NCBI RefSeq assembly: GCF_016406085.1
Contig: NZ_JAEHFJ010000010.1
Coordinates: forward strand, 62,001 to 126,000
Length of the DNA stretch: 64,000 nt
Source of the DNA: Aureibaculum flavum
Lineage (GTDB): Bacteria > Bacteroidota > Bacteroidia > Flavobacteriales > Flavobacteriaceae
Direction: 5' to 3'
How positions within the stretch are numbered: the first letter of the stretch is position 1; the number at the start of each line of letters is the position of its first letter. The notes under the pieces were generated by a model. It was not told the origin of the DNA and made no database searches. It worked only from the letters and a program-made list of their open reading frames with translations. The position numbers and the translations under genes were made by a program. Positions 19,421-64,000 of the stretch are shown here, in pieces.

Positions 19421-20227
19421 TTATTTTAATTCTTTTGTAATTAATCGTGCTACTTCTTTTCCTTGTTGTGTAAATCCTAAATCATTATAATGGACATTTC
19501 CAGGTTCTTGTGCCCATATCTTAGCATTTGGTTTTGTAAATGAATAAAGATCGTTTATTATAATGTCTGGATACTTCTTAAGCACCTCCAACGCGGCTGT
19601 ATTAAATGTAACACTATCTCCTTCAAAACGTCCTTTGGCATTCTTTGGGACCGGTGTTGTGGTAGCAAAAATCAATTTAGCCTTTGGAAAGTTTAGTTTT
19701 AAATACTTACATATTTCATTGAGGTTCTCTTTGTATTCACGTATCCATGAAACTTGTTTTCCGTTTGCTTTGTTTAAATTTTTACCTTTCAAATATTTTA
19801 GATCATGTAAACCCACATTAAAATGAATTAAATCCCATTTAAAATTCCATCCTTTTTCTAAACCTGGTTGAAACATTTTCTCTTGCAGTTCTTCCATATT
19901 TTCTATAAAATTATGACTTGAACCTCCATTTTTGAACAGACGAATAACTGTGGCTTTGTTATTCAATTCTTCTCTAACCGACTGAGAATATGCAATTGAA
20001 ATGGAGTCGCCATATATGAATACATTAGGTAATCCTTTTTTAGGATGTACATACTTAAAAGCCTCTGTTTTATAAACAGATCCCATAGTACCACATAACT
20101 TATCCCAAATTAACCTGCATATTTCCTCATCAGAATTTCTATCCTTAAGAGCTGCAAATACAGCTGGAGACATCCCCGCACTTATAGCACTAAGACCTAG
20201 AATTTTTATAAATTCTTTACGTTCCAT
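19421..20227 (-). CDS. GDSL/SGNH hydrolase with Ser-His but no Asp at -3
   Basis: A 268-residue exported protein (hydrophobic N-terminus, cleavage near PAVFA, residue 25). The SGNH blocks are in normal order: VFIYGDSISIAY (Ser75), KNGGSSHNF (Gly101/102), LIHFNVGLHDL (Asn137) and PGNVHYNDLGF (His246). In most SGNH enzymes an Asp lies three residues before this His; here that position is Gly, so the enzyme may use a Ser-His dyad or another acid such as Glu241. The likely function is an exported carbohydrate esterase acting on acylated oligosaccharides. It lies 36 bp after the upstream beta-helix gene and 39 bp before the sialate-esterase-like gene. Confidence 0.8.
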   Translation of the reverse strand: MERKEFIKILGLSAISAGMSPAVFAALKDRNSDEEICRLIWDKLCGTMGSVYKTEAFKYVHPKKGLPNVFIYGDSISIAYSQSVREELNNKATVIRLFKNGGSSHNFIENMEELQEKMFQPGLEKGWNFKWDLIHFNVGLHDLKYLKGKNLNKANGKQVSWIREYKENLNEICKYLKLNFPKAKLIFATTTPVPKNAKGRFEGDSVTFNTAALEVLKKYPDIIINDLYSFTKPNAKIWAQEPGNVHYNDLGFTQQGKEVARLITKELK

Positions 20228-57138: not shown

Positions 57139-58581
57139 TTAATATTCAGTTTTAATTCTATCAACCCCGTTTTTCACAGCATCCCTTTTTTTCATTGCTA
57201 CAAAAAACAATAAGGTTATAACCACAGAAATACCTAAACCTATCCAATTGGAACTATTAATATCTAAACCTAAACCGACAGTTGGGTCGTAAAAAATATA
57301 AGACCCAACTACACTAGTTATAAAAAATGCTGGAGCTAAGGCAATCATAAAATATGTTTTCTTTTGGTATAAATAAATAGCTCCAATCCATAATGCGATA
57401 GATGCTGTTACTTGATTTGCCCAAGAAAAATACCTCCATAATAATTGAAAATCCATGCTAGTTAAAATATAGGAAATAATAAAAAGAGGAATGGCAACCA
57501 TAAAACGATTTTTTAATACTTTTTGGTCAATTTTCAAATAGTCTGCAATAATCATACGAGCAGCCCTGAAAGAAGTATCTCCAGATGTAATGGGTAGAAC
57601 AATAACTCCTAAAACAGCAATAGTACCTCCAATTGTCCCTAAAGAAACAACGGCTATTTTATTTACTACAGCTGCAGGTCCTCCATTTTGTAAAAGCTCA
57701 TTTAAGGAATCCCCATTTAGAATGCTCATTGCTGCTGCGGCCCATATCATTGCGATAACAGCTTCAAGTATCATCATTCCATAAAATACTTTTCTACCAT
57801 CTTTTTCATTGTTGATGGTACGGGAAATTATTGGAGATTGTGTTGCGTGAAACCCAGATAAAGCTCCGCAAGAAATAGTTAAGAAAATTACGGGATAATA
57901 GGGTATGCCTTTGGGGTGCATATTTTGTAAAGTAAGTTCAGGAATTGGATTTCCAACCATAAACATACCTATACAAATACCTATTGCACTAACTATAAGA
58001 AGAATGCCTAGTATAGGATAAATCTTACCTATAATTTTATCTATAGGTAATATAGTTGCAATAATATAATAGATAAAAATACCAAAGAGTATTATTGTTA
58101 AGTAACTTTTTTCAGAATTAATCAATTCGTTTATCATTTTAGCTGGAGCTGTTACAAAAACAGTACCTACCAAAATTAAAAGCAATAATGTAAAGAAATT
58201 TACAACATGACTAAATGATTTTCCTATAAATCGAGAAGCTAGAGCGGGTAAATGTGCTCCGCCATGTCTTAAAGAAATCATACCTGTAAGATAATCGTGA
58301 ACCGCACCTGCAAATATGGATCCAAATACGATCCAAATAAATGCTACAGGTCCATATAAAGCTCCTAAGATTGGACCAAAAATTGGACCAACTCCTGCTA
58401 TATTCAAAATTTGAATAAATGCGTTTCTGTTACTGTCCATTGGTACAAAGTCAATTCCATCAGACATTGTGTGTGCTGGAGTTTTCTTATCCTTATTAGA
58501 TTTAAATACTTTATCTACGAATTTACCGTAAATTAAATAACCTAAAAGTAATAAACCTATAGCAGTAATAAATGTAATCAT
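57139..58581 (-). CDS. CstA-family carbon-starvation transporter, short form
   Basis: A 480-residue inner-membrane protein with about a dozen hydrophobic helices. Family motifs: FVPMDSNRNAFIQILNIAGVGP, GALYGPVAFIWIVFGSIFAG, LRHGGAHLPALASRF, GALSGFHATQSPIISRT and GGTIAVLGVIVLPITSGDTSFRAAR. CstA and BtsT import peptides or pyruvate. This form of about 480 residues lacks the C-terminal extension of E. coli CstA, as is usual in Bacteroidetes. A transporter of this kind is unexpected in a PUL. It lies between a heparinase-like lyase (187 bp away) and an esterase (25 bp). It may take up a small product such as pyruvate or a keto acid. Confidence 0.88.
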   Translation of the reverse strand: MITFITAIGLLLLGYLIYGKFVDKVFKSNKDKKTPAHTMSDGIDFVPMDSNRNAFIQILNIAGVGPIFGPILGALYGPVAFIWIVFGSIFAGAVHDYLTGMISLRHGGAHLPALASRFIGKSFSHVVNFFTLLLLILVGTVFVTAPAKMINELINSEKSYLTIILFGIFIYYIIATILPIDKIIGKIYPILGILLIVSAIGICIGMFMVGNPIPELTLQNMHPKGIPYYPVIFLTISCGALSGFHATQSPIISRTINNEKDGRKVFYGMMILEAVIAMIWAAAAMSILNGDSLNELLQNGGPAAVVNKIAVVSLGTIGGTIAVLGVIVLPITSGDTSFRAARMIIADYLKIDQKVLKNRFMVAIPLFIISYILTSMDFQLLWRYFSWANQVTASIALWIGAIYLYQKKTYFMIALAPAFFITSVVGSYIFYDPTVGLGLDINSSNWIGLGISVVITLLFFVAMKKRDAVKNGVDRIKTEY

Positions 58582-58767: not shown

Positions 58768-61500
58768 TCACAAACTTATTGGTCTAAGGTCTCCAGCTTC
58801 AAATTTCTTTTCTAACTCATTGTGAGTAATAGTAACTGCAACTTCATTATGGAGCATTAATTTTCCATTTGTTTGTTTTAAAACTACATTTCCTATTTCA
58901 CTAGTTGAAATGGTAAAGTCTTTTGTTGATACTAATTTTCCATTACCCATAAAAATCATCAAATCTCCATTCTTTTCGTTGGCTATTAATGTATAGGAAG
59001 CATCAGTAGTCATATCCTTGTAGTTAACCTTTTGATGATTTGCTGAAGAAAAAACAATATCTTGACGTCCCGATTTATGTTTTAAATGAAGGCCAACAAA
59101 TTCAGTATTCCCATTTTCATCTTCAAAACTAGAAATATTTGTAATGCTCTTTCCTTCACTAGAAGTAAACGGTTCATAAACTGAAACAAAAGGGTGTTCC
59201 CAAGCGGCTCCGTGCTGTCTTGCTGCAAAAGTTAAATAAGGTGCCTTATCAACTTTATACGGTAAGCCATGGTTTCCTTTAAAAGCTTTATTTGGAGGCG
59301 ATTTAATAGAGAATACTTCACGACCTTCTGTTCCTTTCATCCATAAGTTCATAAACACATCCTCTTCTCCTTCTGGCATGTCTATTTTCCATTGGGCTTG
59401 ATAATCGTCTTCAAGTTTTACCGATTTTTTATCCCACATATAATCGAAAGCATATAAAAATCCACCTGCAAAAGCCATTTCTTCTGTTGGCTTAAGATTT
59501 AAGGGTTGCCCAGAAGCATCTAAGACCTCCATACTTTGCCCTAAATTATGATAGAAATAATCATGAAACTTATCACCTTTACGTTGCTTTTTAGAACGGA
59601 AAATATCAATATAATATCCGGTGGTTTCACCTGTTTTAATAGTACTTACCAAACGTGATTGATCACTACGAGTTTCTGGCTCTAAAAAATAGACATCTGA
59701 ATACGTAATATCGGAGTAATATCCATTTTTCTTTTCAGATTTAGGATATTCACCCATTAAATCAAATGCGTGATTACTAAACATTTCGGTATATGAAGAC
59801 ACCCCATCTACCATCACAGTATTGTGTGCTGGAAACTGAGAATAAAACTCCAAGTATATGGGTTGTAGATAACTCGCCCCCTTACCTGGATCAGCTCCTT
59901 GTACAAACCCTTTACCATACAATTCCATATTAATTCCATTGGCATGCATGTGGTTACCCAGTGATCCATTTAAGGAAACCATCATTCCATTTTTTCCAGT
60001 ACCCATACGCTGTACATGCCAACTTACATTCGGTGCATAAAAAGTTTGAGTCATATAATCATTTATATCTCCTGCACCATATTTAGGATTGAGCTCCAAA
60101 GGCTTAGAAGCAAAAAAAGAAGAGATATTTGCTTTTGGTTTTCTTCCTTTTTTACCGGAACTCTTAGAATCTTCAGAAAATAAGTGATACATACTCGTAA
60201 ATTCTTTTTCAACGACTTTATCATTATTCTTCTGAGCTACACGTATTAAGTTTGTAATTGCTTCTGTACCTAAACCAGCATAATTAGAATCGCCAAAAGC
60301 TACTGTTTGCCCATTTGGAAATAAATACTGTGGTAACATTTTAACAGCTTTCTCCATGGTCGGCATATATGGTAAAATATTATGGTCGAAAGTAGTATCA
60401 AAATCCTCAATAAAGGCTGTTAAATCTTTAGTTACACCTTGAGAATACCCAGGGCATTCTGCCCAAACACCATTGTTTTCATCATAACCAAAATCCATAA
60501 ATTTAGTTAACGACCACTGTCTTGCGGAAGTAACATTTAGAATATAATCGATATAATATTCACGCCCTTTTTTATCTTCATAATATTTATTATCCTTTAA
60601 TACCATTGCGGCTTTTAAAATTGTCTTAGCCTGATGTAGATTCCAGTTATTTTGTGGTACTCCATTTTTGATTATTTGATCTGTCCATCTCTTAATGGTT
60701 TTATCATACATAGGTATATATTCAGCGTGATTTGCTTCAATGTACTGATGTAAAAAATCGTAAAGTTCGGCAATATCTATGAGTACACTTTCATGGATTA
60801 CTTGAAAATTAGTAAAGCCAACAAGGGTTTGTATATGCCCATTAAGTAAATCGATAGGTTCACTTCTATAGGACATGCCTTCTAAATAAGTATGGATAAT
60901 GTCATTGGCAAACTTAGCATAACGTACATCATTTTCAAGCCAATAAATAAATGCAGCATCGCGTGCTAACTCAATTATTTGCTCATTAATGGAATAAATT
61001 ACTCGTCCAGTTTTAGAAGGTTCAGCCCATTCAAAAGGATTCCCTTCTTTACTTCTATTTGGTAAATACAAACCACGTGGATCATCCATATAAGGTAAAA
61101 TATCCTCTAATTTTGGCGTTCCATAAGGTGTTGTATAGTCTCTAGAACCTACAAAACGTACTGTAGGTACAGGTGCTTCACCATCGGCATGTGAGTAATT
61201 GATACCGTCTATATAAATAGTAGTTGCTTTGGTTTTCCAATACATTTGCAATCTAGAAACCATCCATTCTGGGTCTGCAACATGACGTTCTACATGTTTA
61301 TCTATACGTTCATGAATACCTTGCAATACGGCTTTGGCCCACGGCTCTTTTTTAATCGTTTTCTCTAAGTCTTTCTTTTCTGATTGTGTAATATATAAAC
61401 GTGGATATCCTTGTTCTAGATTTTCAGGAAGCGGAATTTGTGCATATGCCCATCTTCCAAATAAAGTCAAAATAAGAATTACTACTAACTTTTTTCTCAT
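58768..61500 (-). CDS. Heparinase II/III-like polysaccharide lyase candidate 2
   Basis: A 910-residue exported protein (signal to WAYAQ, about residue 21). Helices of an (alpha/alpha) toroid run to about residue 480: RLYITQSEKKDLEKTI, then VPQNNWNLHQAKTILKAAMV (Asn287, His289) and VWAECPGYSQG (Tyr352). The C-terminal beta-sheet half contains LGNHMHANGINMELYGKGF, with His residues in the catalytic position, and AHNTVMVDG. The chain order fits heparinase II/III-fold lyases. Its sequence is unlike lyase candidate 1 (27249), so they probably cut different linkages. Some large lyases of this shape are ulvan lyases (for example PL40), but I cannot assign the family by eye. The Lys/Arg-rich GKKGRKPKAN (about 455) is probably a linker. 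Confidence 0.72.
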   Translation of the reverse strand: MRKKLVVILILTLFGRWAYAQIPLPENLEQGYPRLYITQSEKKDLEKTIKKEPWAKAVLQGIHERIDKHVERHVADPEWMVSRLQMYWKTKATTIYIDGINYSHADGEAPVPTVRFVGSRDYTTPYGTPKLEDILPYMDDPRGLYLPNRSKEGNPFEWAEPSKTGRVIYSINEQIIELARDAAFIYWLENDVRYAKFANDIIHTYLEGMSYRSEPIDLLNGHIQTLVGFTNFQVIHESVLIDIAELYDFLHQYIEANHAEYIPMYDKTIKRWTDQIIKNGVPQNNWNLHQAKTILKAAMVLKDNKYYEDKKGREYYIDYILNVTSARQWSLTKFMDFGYDENNGVWAECPGYSQGVTKDLTAFIEDFDTTFDHNILPYMPTMEKAVKMLPQYLFPNGQTVAFGDSNYAGLGTEAITNLIRVAQKNNDKVVEKEFTSMYHLFSEDSKSSGKKGRKPKANISSFFASKPLELNPKYGAGDINDYMTQTFYAPNVSWHVQRMGTGKNGMMVSLNGSLGNHMHANGINMELYGKGFVQGADPGKGASYLQPIYLEFYSQFPAHNTVMVDGVSSYTEMFSNHAFDLMGEYPKSEKKNGYYSDITYSDVYFLEPETRSDQSRLVSTIKTGETTGYYIDIFRSKKQRKGDKFHDYFYHNLGQSMEVLDASGQPLNLKPTEEMAFAGGFLYAFDYMWDKKSVKLEDDYQAQWKIDMPEGEEDVFMNLWMKGTEGREVFSIKSPPNKAFKGNHGLPYKVDKAPYLTFAARQHGAAWEHPFVSVYEPFTSSEGKSITNISSFEDENGNTEFVGLHLKHKSGRQDIVFSSANHQKVNYKDMTTDASYTLIANEKNGDLMIFMGNGKLVSTKDFTISTSEIGNVVLKQTNGKLMLHNEVAVTITHNELEKKFEAGDLRPISL

Positions 61501-61529: not shown

Positions 61530-62354
61530 TTATTTAACGAATGCTGTCATTGGAATTACCTTTTCAAATTCCTTAATTTTAATATTTCTATAATAAATTT
61601 CAGCCGTTTCTGACTGAAATCCAATAACACCTTCACTTACCGAAAGATTTGTGGCCATATTTACAATCTCTCCATTCAATTTGTGAATGGTATATGTATC
61701 ACCCATAACAATAATCTCACATTGGTTCCATTTATCATTTAGGGCATTATATGTTGGATTAGCAATACCATAAAGTTCATTTTTCTTTTCTCCCATATCT
61801 TTTCCTCCATCATTTGGTAAAAGAAATGTTTTACCATCTTCAGTGGCTGTCCAATGTAATGTTGTACTCGCGGCCCAAAAATCACCAGTATGATTTCTAT
61901 TTGTTATATGGTTATACCTTATTTGATATTCTATCCCTTTCGGCCATATTTTATCATCAAAAACATGATAATAACAACCTGCATCATATTGCCATTTATC
62001 AAAGTTATTAGTGATTTTTGTCCCCCATTTATATTCAAACCTCAGTATATATTTACTATATTTTTTATTTGTATAAAAAAGACCGTGTGTTGCATTTTCT
62101 CCTGTATTCAGATTTAAACTATCGGGCATATATTTAAAAACATGCACCATTCCATCCTCAATTGCGTATACTTTTTTGGCCATATCTTCATCTCCATTTT
62201 TTAATTTAAGATGCCAACCATCCCAATTTTTACCATTGAATATTTCCACAAAACCTTCATCTGATAATGGGTCTTTTTGAGTCTTTGTACATGCAATTGT
62301 TAACATAAAAATTAATGTTACAAGTACTGGATAATATGATAGTTTAGATTTCAT
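61530..62354 (-). CDS. DUF1080 / 3-keto-disaccharide hydrolase-like lipoprotein, copy 2
   Basis: A 274-residue lipoprotein (TIAC, Cys22). The DUF1080 domain spans nearly all the mature chain: FVEIFNGKNWDGWHLK at the start, YILRFEYKWGTKI, NDKWNQCEIIVMGDTYTIHK and a tail GVIGFQSETAEIYYRNIKIK. Such domains hydrolyse or eliminate 3-keto-glycosides, or only bind glycans; some members have no shown activity. It is 29 bp before the lyase candidate and 20 bp after the permuted SGNH gene. Its partner oxidase could be the FAD-dependent protein two genes upstream or the dehydrogenase at 33122. Little similarity to copy 1 beyond the domain pattern. Confidence 0.8.
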   Translation of the reverse strand: MKSKLSYYPVLVTLIFMLTIACTKTQKDPLSDEGFVEIFNGKNWDGWHLKLKNGDEDMAKKVYAIEDGMVHVFKYMPDSLNLNTGENATHGLFYTNKKYSKYILRFEYKWGTKITNNFDKWQYDAGCYYHVFDDKIWPKGIEYQIRYNHITNRNHTGDFWAASTTLHWTATEDGKTFLLPNDGGKDMGEKKNELYGIANPTYNALNDKWNQCEIIVMGDTYTIHKLNGEIVNMATNLSVSEGVIGFQSETAEIYYRNIKIKEFEKVIPMTAFVK

Positions 62355-62374: not shown

Positions 62375-63085
62375 TTATTTATGATCATAATCATTTATGA
62401 GGTTCTGTAGGATAACTGGATAGGTTTTTCCTTTTGCTCCGCTACCTTTGGTTATAGAATCTCCAAAACATACAATTTTCTGTTGCTTCTGTACTAATTG
62501 ATTCTCTTTTAAAAAATAAAATACTATTTCTCCAATAAGATGATACCCCAATTCAGTAGGATGTACTCCATCACTAACTCCACTATTTTTTTGATTTCTA
62601 ATAAACAAATCTGTGTTGTGTTTTGGAAGGTTTAAATCAGTAAAAACCTGATAAAGGTCTATAAACTTCAAATCATGGTTAACAGCAATTCGCAAATTTA
62701 TTTTTCTCACTGAATCTAATTTTTCATTAGGAGATTCATTAAAAAGATTTTTATCATGCCTTTCAAAAAGATAAACTGAGTCTGCCGGTGGAGGTGACAT
62801 TAACACAATTTCACTTCCTTTTTCTTTTATTTTTCTAACTAGCGTTACAAGATTGTCTTCATATTTTTTATATGAAATCATTTTTTTAGAATTCAACATA
62901 TCATTTGTACCCACCATCAAAATCACTAAATCAGGATGTTGTTCTAAAACATCTTTATTTAGTCGATGTAATAAATTCATAGTATTATTACCTCCTACTC
63001 CAGCATTAATAACCTGAGCACTAACACCTAAAGAGCTAATTACTAAACCAAAAGTTAAAACAGTAATTGAAAAATAATATCTCAT
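62375..63085 (-). CDS. Circularly permuted GDSL/SGNH hydrolase
   Basis: A 236-residue exported protein (signal to VSAQ, residue 24). It begins directly with block II (VINAGVGGNNT, Gly29-Gly32), then block III (ILMVGTNDMLN, Asn61), then block V (SDGVHPTELGYHLIG, Asp172 and His175). Block I with the catalytic Ser comes last (KIVCFGDSITKGSG, Ser210), followed by the helix TYPVILQNLIND that normally opens the fold. All catalytic residues are present, but the order is II-III-V-I instead of I-II-III-V. It starts 4 bp after the stop of the FAD oxidoreductase gene, so the two are tightly coupled. The likely role is an exported carbohydrate esterase. Confidence 0.85.
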   Translation of the reverse strand: MRYYFSITVLTFGLVISSLGVSAQVINAGVGGNNTMNLLHRLNKDVLEQHPDLVILMVGTNDMLNSKKMISYKKYEDNLVTLVRKIKEKGSEIVLMSPPPADSVYLFERHDKNLFNESPNEKLDSVRKINLRIAVNHDLKFIDLYQVFTDLNLPKHNTDLFIRNQKNSGVSDGVHPTELGYHLIGEIVFYFLKENQLVQKQQKIVCFGDSITKGSGAKGKTYPVILQNLINDYDHK

Positions 63086-63089
63086 TTTC

Positions 63090-64000
63090 TTATGGTAAAA
63101 ATTCTAAAACTTGCTGATCTACTATTAATTTTTCTTTTAATTTATCGTAAGAAACTTCATGAATATCATTTCCAGATTCAATTGCCAAACCTGCTAAAGT
63201 ACCAGCACTTTGTCCTAGTATCATAAAAACAGGTTCCATTCTAATTGATCCATAAGCAATGTGAGAACTCGACACTGCACAAGGAACAATTAAGTTTTTA
63301 CACTCTTCTTTTTTTGGAAGAATAGTACCTAAATGAATTTGATAGGGCTCTTCTGCATCAACACCTAAATCACCTTCATTTTGTGCATATCCATCTTTTG
63401 TAATATAACGTTGTACATTATGTGAATCCATCGTATACGAGCCCATTCCTATTGGTTGGGTAACTCCGCTTTTTCCTAAAATTTCATTTTCAGTCATTAT
63501 AAATTCACCAATCATACGTCTTGCTTCACGCACATAAATTTGATATGGCCAATGATTATTATCTACAAACTCATCTTTAGCTAAGCCCCATTTATTAATA
63601 TTGTCTTTATGTTCTTGCGGAACGCTTTCGTCATGCCCCCAAAAATAAAGCAAGCCTTTATGATAGCTAATATGTTGTGCTAAAATTTCTTTTCTCTTTT
63701 CATAAGTTGCCTCAGGGTAATCATAGTTCATACCAATATTATCTGAACTAAATGGACCTACATTATTAACATCTCGTTTATGATTTGGAATTTTACCACC
63801 TCCAAACATAGAATACCTACCAGACTTAAAGACTCTCCTTAAGAGCTCATAATCTGCAGGATTATAATTTTCTGGTTTTTCAAAAGCAACTACATTACCT
63901 TCCGCATTGGTTGTACATAATCTGTAATTATAAGCTTGTACTTTATTATCTCCTTGTCCTTGCTCTCCAGGTGGGTCTGCAGAAATAAAGGGCAAAACGC
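63090..64000 (-). CDS. FAD-dependent oxidoreductase, C-terminal part only
   Basis: The frame runs off the right edge, with codons continuing upstream of the TTG at 63995, so only the last ~303 residues are visible; the N-terminal FAD-binding glycine motif lies outside. The end fits the FAD_oxidored family: PFISADPPGEQGQGDNKVQAYNYRLCTT, which is long for one motif, then REARRMIGEFIMTENEI, MGSYTMDSHNVQRY and the closing RMEPVFMILGQSAGTLAGLA. Such proteins are common in Bacteroidetes and Planctomycetes PULs, often labelled xanthan-lyase-like, and their substrates are unknown. It overlaps none of its neighbours and lies 4 bp upstream of the permuted SGNH gene. It could supply a keto-sugar to the DUF1080 proteins. 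Confidence 0.8.
   Translation of the reverse strand, partial: VLPFISADPPGEQGQGDNKVQAYNYRLCTTNAEGNVVAFEKPENYNPADYELLRRVFKSGRYSMFGGGKIPNHKRDVNNVGPFSSDNIGMNYDYPEATYEKRKEILAQHISYHKGLLYFWGHDESVPQEHKDNINKWGLAKDEFVDNNHWPYQIYVREARRMIGEFIMTENEILGKSGVTQPIGMGSYTMDSHNVQRYITKDGYAQNEGDLGVDAEEPYQIHLGTILPKKEECKNLIVPCAVSSSHIAYGSIRMEPVFMILGQSAGTLAGLAIESGNDIHEVSYDKLKEKLIVDQQVLEFLP

Follow-up and report, generated by a model that had tools for sequence, protein, structure and literature searches.

The window analysed here, the whole 64,000-nucleotide stretch of an Aureibaculum flavum contig, carries close to its end a reverse-strand gene (62375..63085 (-)) that starts with ATG and encodes a 236-amino-acid protein. 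The blocks that characterize the SGNH superfamily, namely block I (GDS), block II (Gly), block III (GxND) and block V (DxxH), are all present in this product, in the order II, III, V, I. A putative signal peptide (residues 1–23, with cleavage between GVSA and Q judged by eye; 63017..63085 (-)) ends one residue ahead of strand beta-2 (residues 24–29) and runs straight into block II. The latter reads VINAGVGGNNT, and its GVGGN portion (residues 29–33; 62987..63001 (-)) contains Gly32, presumed to be an oxyanion residue by analogy with canonical homologues. Block III follows as GTND (residues 59–62; 62900..62911 (-)), with the oxyanion Asn61, and block V as DGVH (residues 172–175; 62561..62572 (-)), with the catalytic Asp172 and His175. 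Between them lies the loop LFERHDKNLF (residues 106–115; 62741..62770 (-)), typical of the relatives described below, whose Arg109-His110 pair is likely to contact the substrate. A linker that would connect the former chain ends (residues 195–202; 62480..62503 (-)), placed in the structural model between helix 178–194 and strand 203–208, leads to the transposed block I segment (residues 203–236; 62378..62479 (-)). This segment, assigned by a rotation test, comprises strand beta-1, the GDSIT motif with the nucleophile Ser210 (in the context CFGDSITKGSG) and helix alpha-1, and the stop codon lies 26 residues past Ser210. A preliminary description of this DNA had proposed this very arrangement, with a signal peptide directly before block II, a C-terminal block I bearing Ser210 and no loss of catalytic residues, and the open reading frame, in which G32, N61, D172, H175 and S210 are all found, bears it out.

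The native protein scored 82.2 bits against the Pfam family PF13472 (GDSL_2), above the curated cut-off of 32.9, yet the alignment covered profile positions 33–177 of 178 only. The canonical linear order I-II-III-V is absent from the window protein, and rotation restored it, since a rotated copy without the signal peptide reached 94.4 bits over positions 1–177. As the Pfam model aligns these proteins only partly, automated annotation may call them truncated ordinary enzymes. A profile HMM built from 22 canonical-order homologues gave 120.5 bits for the native domain (profile 38–193), 121.4 bits for the core without the last block and 148.9 bits for the rotated domain (profile 2–193). Transfer of the C-terminal 34 residues to the N-terminal side therefore added 27.5 bits over the core alone, while 20 shuffled versions of the same tail gained at most 7.5 bits, which argues that the block I match is not a chance one. 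The rotated form outscored the native domain in 26/26 of the related proteins tested first (mean gain 20.3 bits, range 12.7–28.5) and in four of four tested later (11.8–20.2 bits). Over the core alone the gain extended to all 30 members, at 11.7–27.6 bits for the first 26 and 11.0–19.2 for the later four; the corresponding maxima for shuffled tails, of which 20 were made per member, were 8.2 and 6.8 bits.

A search for homologues with the same block order, as the preliminary description had suggested, recovered a clade made of 28 bacterial loci, all from Bacteroidota, and two contigs of tailed phages. The permuted order is common to the 30 non-redundant members, and when genome contigs were scanned for close relatives, each of the 12 loci obtained had it. 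The 28 bacterial loci are those that were left after removal of three repeats and still include some near-copies (the window gene and L008 are 93% identical); because the permuted loci are related to each other, counts made on them are not independent. The family is sparse among Bacteroidota: in sampled searches, permuted members were found in 4/395 genomes of the phylum, 4/395 of the class, 12/397 of the family (E up to 1e-30) and 1/92 of another family, these samples being overlapping and the phylum, class and family ones each containing the genome of the window itself. An identical order in 30/30 members, spread over numerous genomes and the two phage contigs, led us to discard the idea that the gene is an isolated broken copy or an artefact of assembly or gene calling, the chance of which we regard as negligible.

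Conservation extends well beyond the order of the blocks, which is kept in 28/28 bacterial members. The distance from the Asp of block V to the start of the block I segment is 29–31 residues in every one of them, and the chain ends 20–41 residues past GDS in 27 of the 28. Over 16 aligned members the mean column identity is 58%, and the invariant positions include G29, G32, N33, the whole of the GTND and DGVH motifs (hence N61, D172 and H175), S210, Cys206 and Arg109-His110. The RH pair is found within its loop stretch in 27/28 bacterial members, the exception being L068, which lacks the Arg-His loop and is, with L064 and L067, one of the divergent members. The window gene and its counterpart in Aureibaculum luteum are 93% identical and differ over their full length by 20 synonymous nucleotide changes and 17 amino acids; residues 199–236 show six synonymous differences and no amino-acid difference, numbers that are small and consistent with purifying selection on the block I region. 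That the protein would be catalytically dead, or a purely binding protein that has retained the SGNH fold, finds an echo in the phage member L133, in which the block II glycine is lost. The invariance of the active-site S, D, H, G and N in an alignment of this diversity, together with the purely synonymous divergence of the block I region between two close species, speaks against such a loss of function, which we judged quite unlikely and set aside on these sequence grounds.

Circular permutation is usually explained by a gene that is duplicated and then loses its outer parts, so that a tandem arrangement is the expected intermediate. The C-terminal block could accordingly be what is left of another SGNH domain that was truncated, a possibility that the preliminary description had named as one that would overturn its proposal. 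The core, however, starts at profile position 38–40 in 26/26 of the first-tested members and therefore lacks a block I, the C-terminal one being the only copy, and the chain stops soon after GDS, as noted above. A duplicated form with block I at both ends was also absent from the matches listed above thresholds when tandem profiles (A2 and A3) were searched against 395 class, 92 other-family and 395 phylum genomes. We therefore rejected the remnant of a second domain as very improbable. One match from the sampled genome searches, G002, aligned to query residues 182–232 only, in a 692-amino-acid frame, and was considered as a possible intermediate; its translation revealed an SGNH domain of canonical order, N-terminal in a longer protein, the signal peptide of which had aligned by chance with the helix preceding block I. 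The block I region of this G002 protein (L232 1883-3958 (-); GDSVTKGYGLAKGKSYPDQLQSLL) is closely similar to the transposed block I of the window protein, with 45% identity over 51 residues.

The structure predicted by AlphaFold from 16 sequences is a single domain (pLDDT 91.2, pTM 0.86) with the three-layer alpha/beta/alpha SGNH fold. It includes strand 24–29, the strand 203–208 and the helices 210–213 and 222–235 of the transposed segment, and residues 1–20 have low pLDDT (54–61). Among Foldseek matches that were re-ranked, a list outside of which other families may also lie close, the best structural neighbours of the model are canonical SGNH enzymes: 1yzf, an SGNH hydrolase (Z 17.8, rmsd 2.4 over 160 residues; Foldseek TM 0.72 when normalised by target), and 7ddy, an acetylxylan esterase (Z 17.8, rmsd 1.9 over 152 residues). 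These alignments follow sequence order, and so the moved strand was not superposed on the canonical strand 1. The SGNH sheet has strand 2 at the edge and strand 1 in its interior; the permuted chain would consequently start with an edge strand and end with a central one. Such a piece at a free chain end could also be swapped, with block I of one chain completing the core of its neighbour in a protein that must form dimers or chains of protomers in order to function. The monomer is modelled with confidence including the moved strand (mean pLDDT 95–96 for residues 191–210), and the constant 29–31 residue spacing is what would be expected if the linker had to bridge a set intramolecular gap, and we hold a swapped oligomer to be unlikely. 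Taken together, the gain on rotation, the conservation of order and spacing and the confident single-domain model, obtained along the lines that the preliminary description had put forward, support a natural circular permutation that is real and conserved, with all catalytic positions intact.

The closest known systems are the canonical SGNH/GDSL_2 enzymes (PF13472), among them the Enterococcus faecalis protein 1yzf, AlAXEase (7ddy) and Axe2 (3w7v), which share the blocks and the modelled fold with the window protein (Z 15.4–17.8). The relationship to 1yzf is also detected at the sequence level (E 2.1e-17), and the acetylxylan esterases Axe2 and AlAXEase are among the PDB chains that match the window protein. 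They differ by their S-G-N-H order, to be compared with G-N-H-S here, and by the Arg-His loop conserved in the permuted clade. A permuted SGNH core has already been described (PMC9487903, PMC4148444, PMC5697884) for AlgX/AlgJ and for the DHHW family (PatB1), with the order H-S-G-N. The motifs given there are DxH, a GTSYS block I and a block III Tyr for AlgX (PMC9487903, PMC4148444) and a KDS block I and a TDHHW block V for PatB1 (PMC9487903). Since both groups are permuted, SGNH-like and act on polysaccharides, the window protein could be one of them, and hence an acetyltransferase instead of an esterase. Its chain is cut elsewhere, in the order G-N-H-S, its motifs are DGVH, GDSIT and Asn61 in place of those of either family, and no AlgX or DHHW family was matched in a Pfam scan up to E 0.1. 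Moreover, AlgX/AlgJ and PatB1 are O-acetyltransferases of polysaccharide synthesis, whereas the neighbours of the window gene are catabolic. Membership in these families is thus highly improbable and was discarded on order and motifs.

A G-N-H-S permutant was not found among the papers listed for SGNH permutation in a mostly open-access literature, nor in the accessible parts of PMC3779223, PMC5408684, PMC12419801, PMC13276840, PMC6385246, PMC11713874 and PMC3243724. Likewise, 69 PDB sequences matched the tandem profile, and the best-matching stretches of the 60 listed all ended at position 213 or before, in the canonical register. While permuted SGNH proteins as such are already known, the G-N-H-S layout of this familiar enzyme is apparently undescribed.

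No canonical-order sister of the clade was found in the class and phylum samples. The best canonical-order match reached 91.4 bits in the class sample, compared with 127.8 for the weakest permuted one (A2), and 100.5 bits in the phylum sample, compared with 242.6 (A3). In a tree of the common core (28 permuted and 34 canonical rows), for which the long-branched L003 and L034 and duplicate sequences were left out, the permuted set did not fall on one side of a branch and three changes of order were required; a single change was seen in 2% of 200 bootstrap trees. An earlier tree (28 permuted and 46 canonical rows), which left out 10 loci without a usable canonical core, required two changes. Holding the permuted set together was not rejected (p-AU 0.408), so that a single origin of the permuted order is compatible with the data and is allowed by these sequence comparisons.

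The permuted domain also occurs within larger proteins. In L016 (4660-6669), L017 (4663-6669), L018 (4663-6669) and L056 it forms the C-terminal third of a protein of about 670 amino acids, behind a beta-helix-like front part of about 450 amino acids; the Pfam Beta_helix family was matched in L016. L016, L017 and L018 also encode, a short distance away, similar beta-helix-like proteins devoid of an SGNH domain. L064 (G701:C9:62849-63409) has the reverse architecture, with the permuted domain N-terminal in a 499-amino-acid protein whose end resembles, by eye, a sorting domain. Its block I region (GDSITTHYPELLYNLL) is very short, with more protein after it. About 17 kb from L064, its contig also carries the beta-helix fusion L056, and a different contig holds L063 as a third permuted gene.

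Two IMG/VR contigs carry the phage members. In the first, a 231-amino-acid permuted SGNH protein (L132 1956-2651; L143 3013-3708), with a model of pLDDT 84.4 and pTM 0.86, is encoded between a fibronectin type III open reading frame, which has no PHROG match and only its position to suggest a tail fibre, and an endolysin; a phage DnaB-like helicase is found on the same contig. In the second, which bears a major head protein and a tape-measure protein, the domain is the C-terminal part of a 432-amino-acid protein (L133 1332-2630; L144 7386-8684). Block II of L133 reads GVPNNN, with Asn in place of the presumed oxyanion glycine, and block V reads DYVH; judging from these motifs, its activity may differ from that of its relatives. 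L064 and the two phage proteins cluster together (support 95/91) on long branches.

Scans of viral contigs queried with the two phage members returned only themselves. Translation of six viral loci (L132–L137) gave the permuted order for L132 and L133 and the canonical order for L134–L137. A further viral search gave ten loci, of which two were the same permuted contigs and eight, the L134 contig among them, matched from profile residue 1 or 2 in the canonical register. In the 950-amino-acid protein of L134 (711-3563), the SGNH domain, of canonical order, sits in mid-chain. The plasmid search matched 21 records, none covering 80% of the query. In INPHARED, the window protein matched 53 records, of which four covered at least 80% among the 30 matches listed, and L132 matched 17, with none covering 80%. 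Three of these four long matches (K389, PS34B.2 and MT839494; 268E42.1 was left out) were translated as candidate permuted proteins and rejected, since all three have the canonical order. SGNH esterase domains such as those of L134 and Vibrio phage K389 occur in phage proteins in the canonical order, and among the phage sequences translated the permuted form was restricted to L132/L143 and L133/L144. One scenario, to which we give somewhat less than even odds, is that the G-N-H-S lineage arose once and has been exchanged as a module, with polysaccharide-degradation loci of bacteria on one side and proteins of the phage tail region on the other, the cut leaving an edge strand at the N-terminus, ready for fusion, and the catalytic central strand to be translated last.

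The surroundings of the permuted genes are polysaccharide-degradation genes. In the window, the next upstream gene, on the same strand and 4 bases apart, encodes a FAD-dependent oxidoreductase (PF12831) with a lipoprotein-like N-terminal signal, as judged by eye. Its 3' part lies at 63090..64000 (-), and the whole gene (560 amino acids) at C2:125090-126772. The next gene downstream encodes a protein of the 3-keto-disaccharide hydrolase family (PF06439; 61530..62354 (-)), with a homologue near 5/28 permuted loci. It is followed by a 910-amino-acid heparinase II/III-like protein (58768..61500 (-)), with a weak match to PF07940 below the cut-off and a homologue near 8/28 permuted loci, and by a CstA-family carrier (57139..58581 (-)). 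When the neighbourhood was read over C2:114001-134000, partly outside the window, the same-strand run comprised upstream, in transcription order, a heparinase-like protein, a GH141-like beta-helix protein with a PDZ domain, a GH29 fucosidase, a canonical GDSL protein and the FAD oxidoreductase, and downstream, after the CstA carrier, a BD-FAE esterase, a DUF2961 protein and a GH141-like beta-helix protein. The canonical GDSL protein, encoded next-but-one upstream just beyond the window (C2:127019-128059), has 346 amino acids and an N-terminal Fucosidase_C-like domain. Elsewhere in the clade, GH95, sulfatase, GH28 and heparinase/alginate-lyase-like proteins are each found at single loci.

A homologue of the FAD oxidoreductase was found within 6 kb of 18/28 permuted loci, one of them (L101) by a match at 31% identity only, and of 0/20 canonical-order loci, these controls being chosen from the best canonical-order matches and the Fisher p of 2e-6 ignoring relatedness; the other 10 of the 28 had none within this distance. 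In the 13 loci that were first examined, the FAD gene was next upstream in eight and next downstream in two, and in three of those upstream loci it overlapped the permuted gene by 4 bases. Conversely, 39 homologues of the FAD protein were listed (E up to 1e-100) in 319 genomes of the family, and seven of them, including four of the five with at least 78% identity, lie near a permuted gene. Twenty further neighbourhoods of FAD homologues, chosen as having no known permuted gene and including the fifth one at 78%, contained no SGNH gene within about 6 kb, with positive profile controls. The tight link to a FAD oxidoreductase that was initially proposed thus stands in the direction from the permuted gene to the FAD gene, but it is not exclusive. 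A search of the literature on the FAD and 3-keto neighbour genes found nothing.

We propose that the window protein is a natural permutant of the SGNH (GDSL) hydrolases and, with good probability, an ordinary secreted serine O-acylesterase acting on an acidic fucose-containing polysaccharide; ester hydrolysis is the most likely reaction by analogy with its fold neighbours and from the nature of the locus. The chain would be opened in the loop that leads from helix alpha-1 to strand beta-2, with a short linker uniting the old ends, so that the exported protein begins at beta-2 and the strand of Ser210 is made last. After export, a standard SGNH site would fold from the permuted chain: the strand bearing Ser210 is predicted to insert into the sheet, presumably of the same chain, and to rebuild the Ser210-His175-Asp172 triad, with Gly32 and Asn61 forming the oxyanion hole. 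Acting outside the cytoplasm, the enzyme would then remove O-acyl groups, probably O-acetyl, from the polysaccharide or from fragments of it. In many loci this deacylation may expose a hydroxyl, and the FAD oxidoreductase would act on the deacylated sugar. In the window locus, the family name of the 3-keto-disaccharide hydrolase, whose gene is near just 5 of the 28 loci, suggests that the sugar is oxidised at carbon 3 and then cleaved by this hydrolase. Catalysis, acetyl specificity, substrate, closure within one chain and cooperation with the FAD enzyme are in each case what we infer.

Natural permutants that have intact catalytic sites and unpermuted relatives of similar sequence are good tests of the evolution of protein topology, and in this clade it is the central strand, together with the nucleophile, that has moved, a change by which the order of folding would be strongly altered. 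The recurrent association of these genes with one FAD oxidoreductase points to a step of polysaccharide breakdown that is still uncharacterised. The keto-disaccharide hydrolase at 61530-62354, the SGNH protein and the FAD oxidoreductase may form an oxidative glycoside-cleaving unit. Finally, a weak GDSL_2 match (26.1 bits, under the cut-off) was noted elsewhere in the window, at 19475-20011 (C2:81475-82011), in a 276-amino-acid frame.
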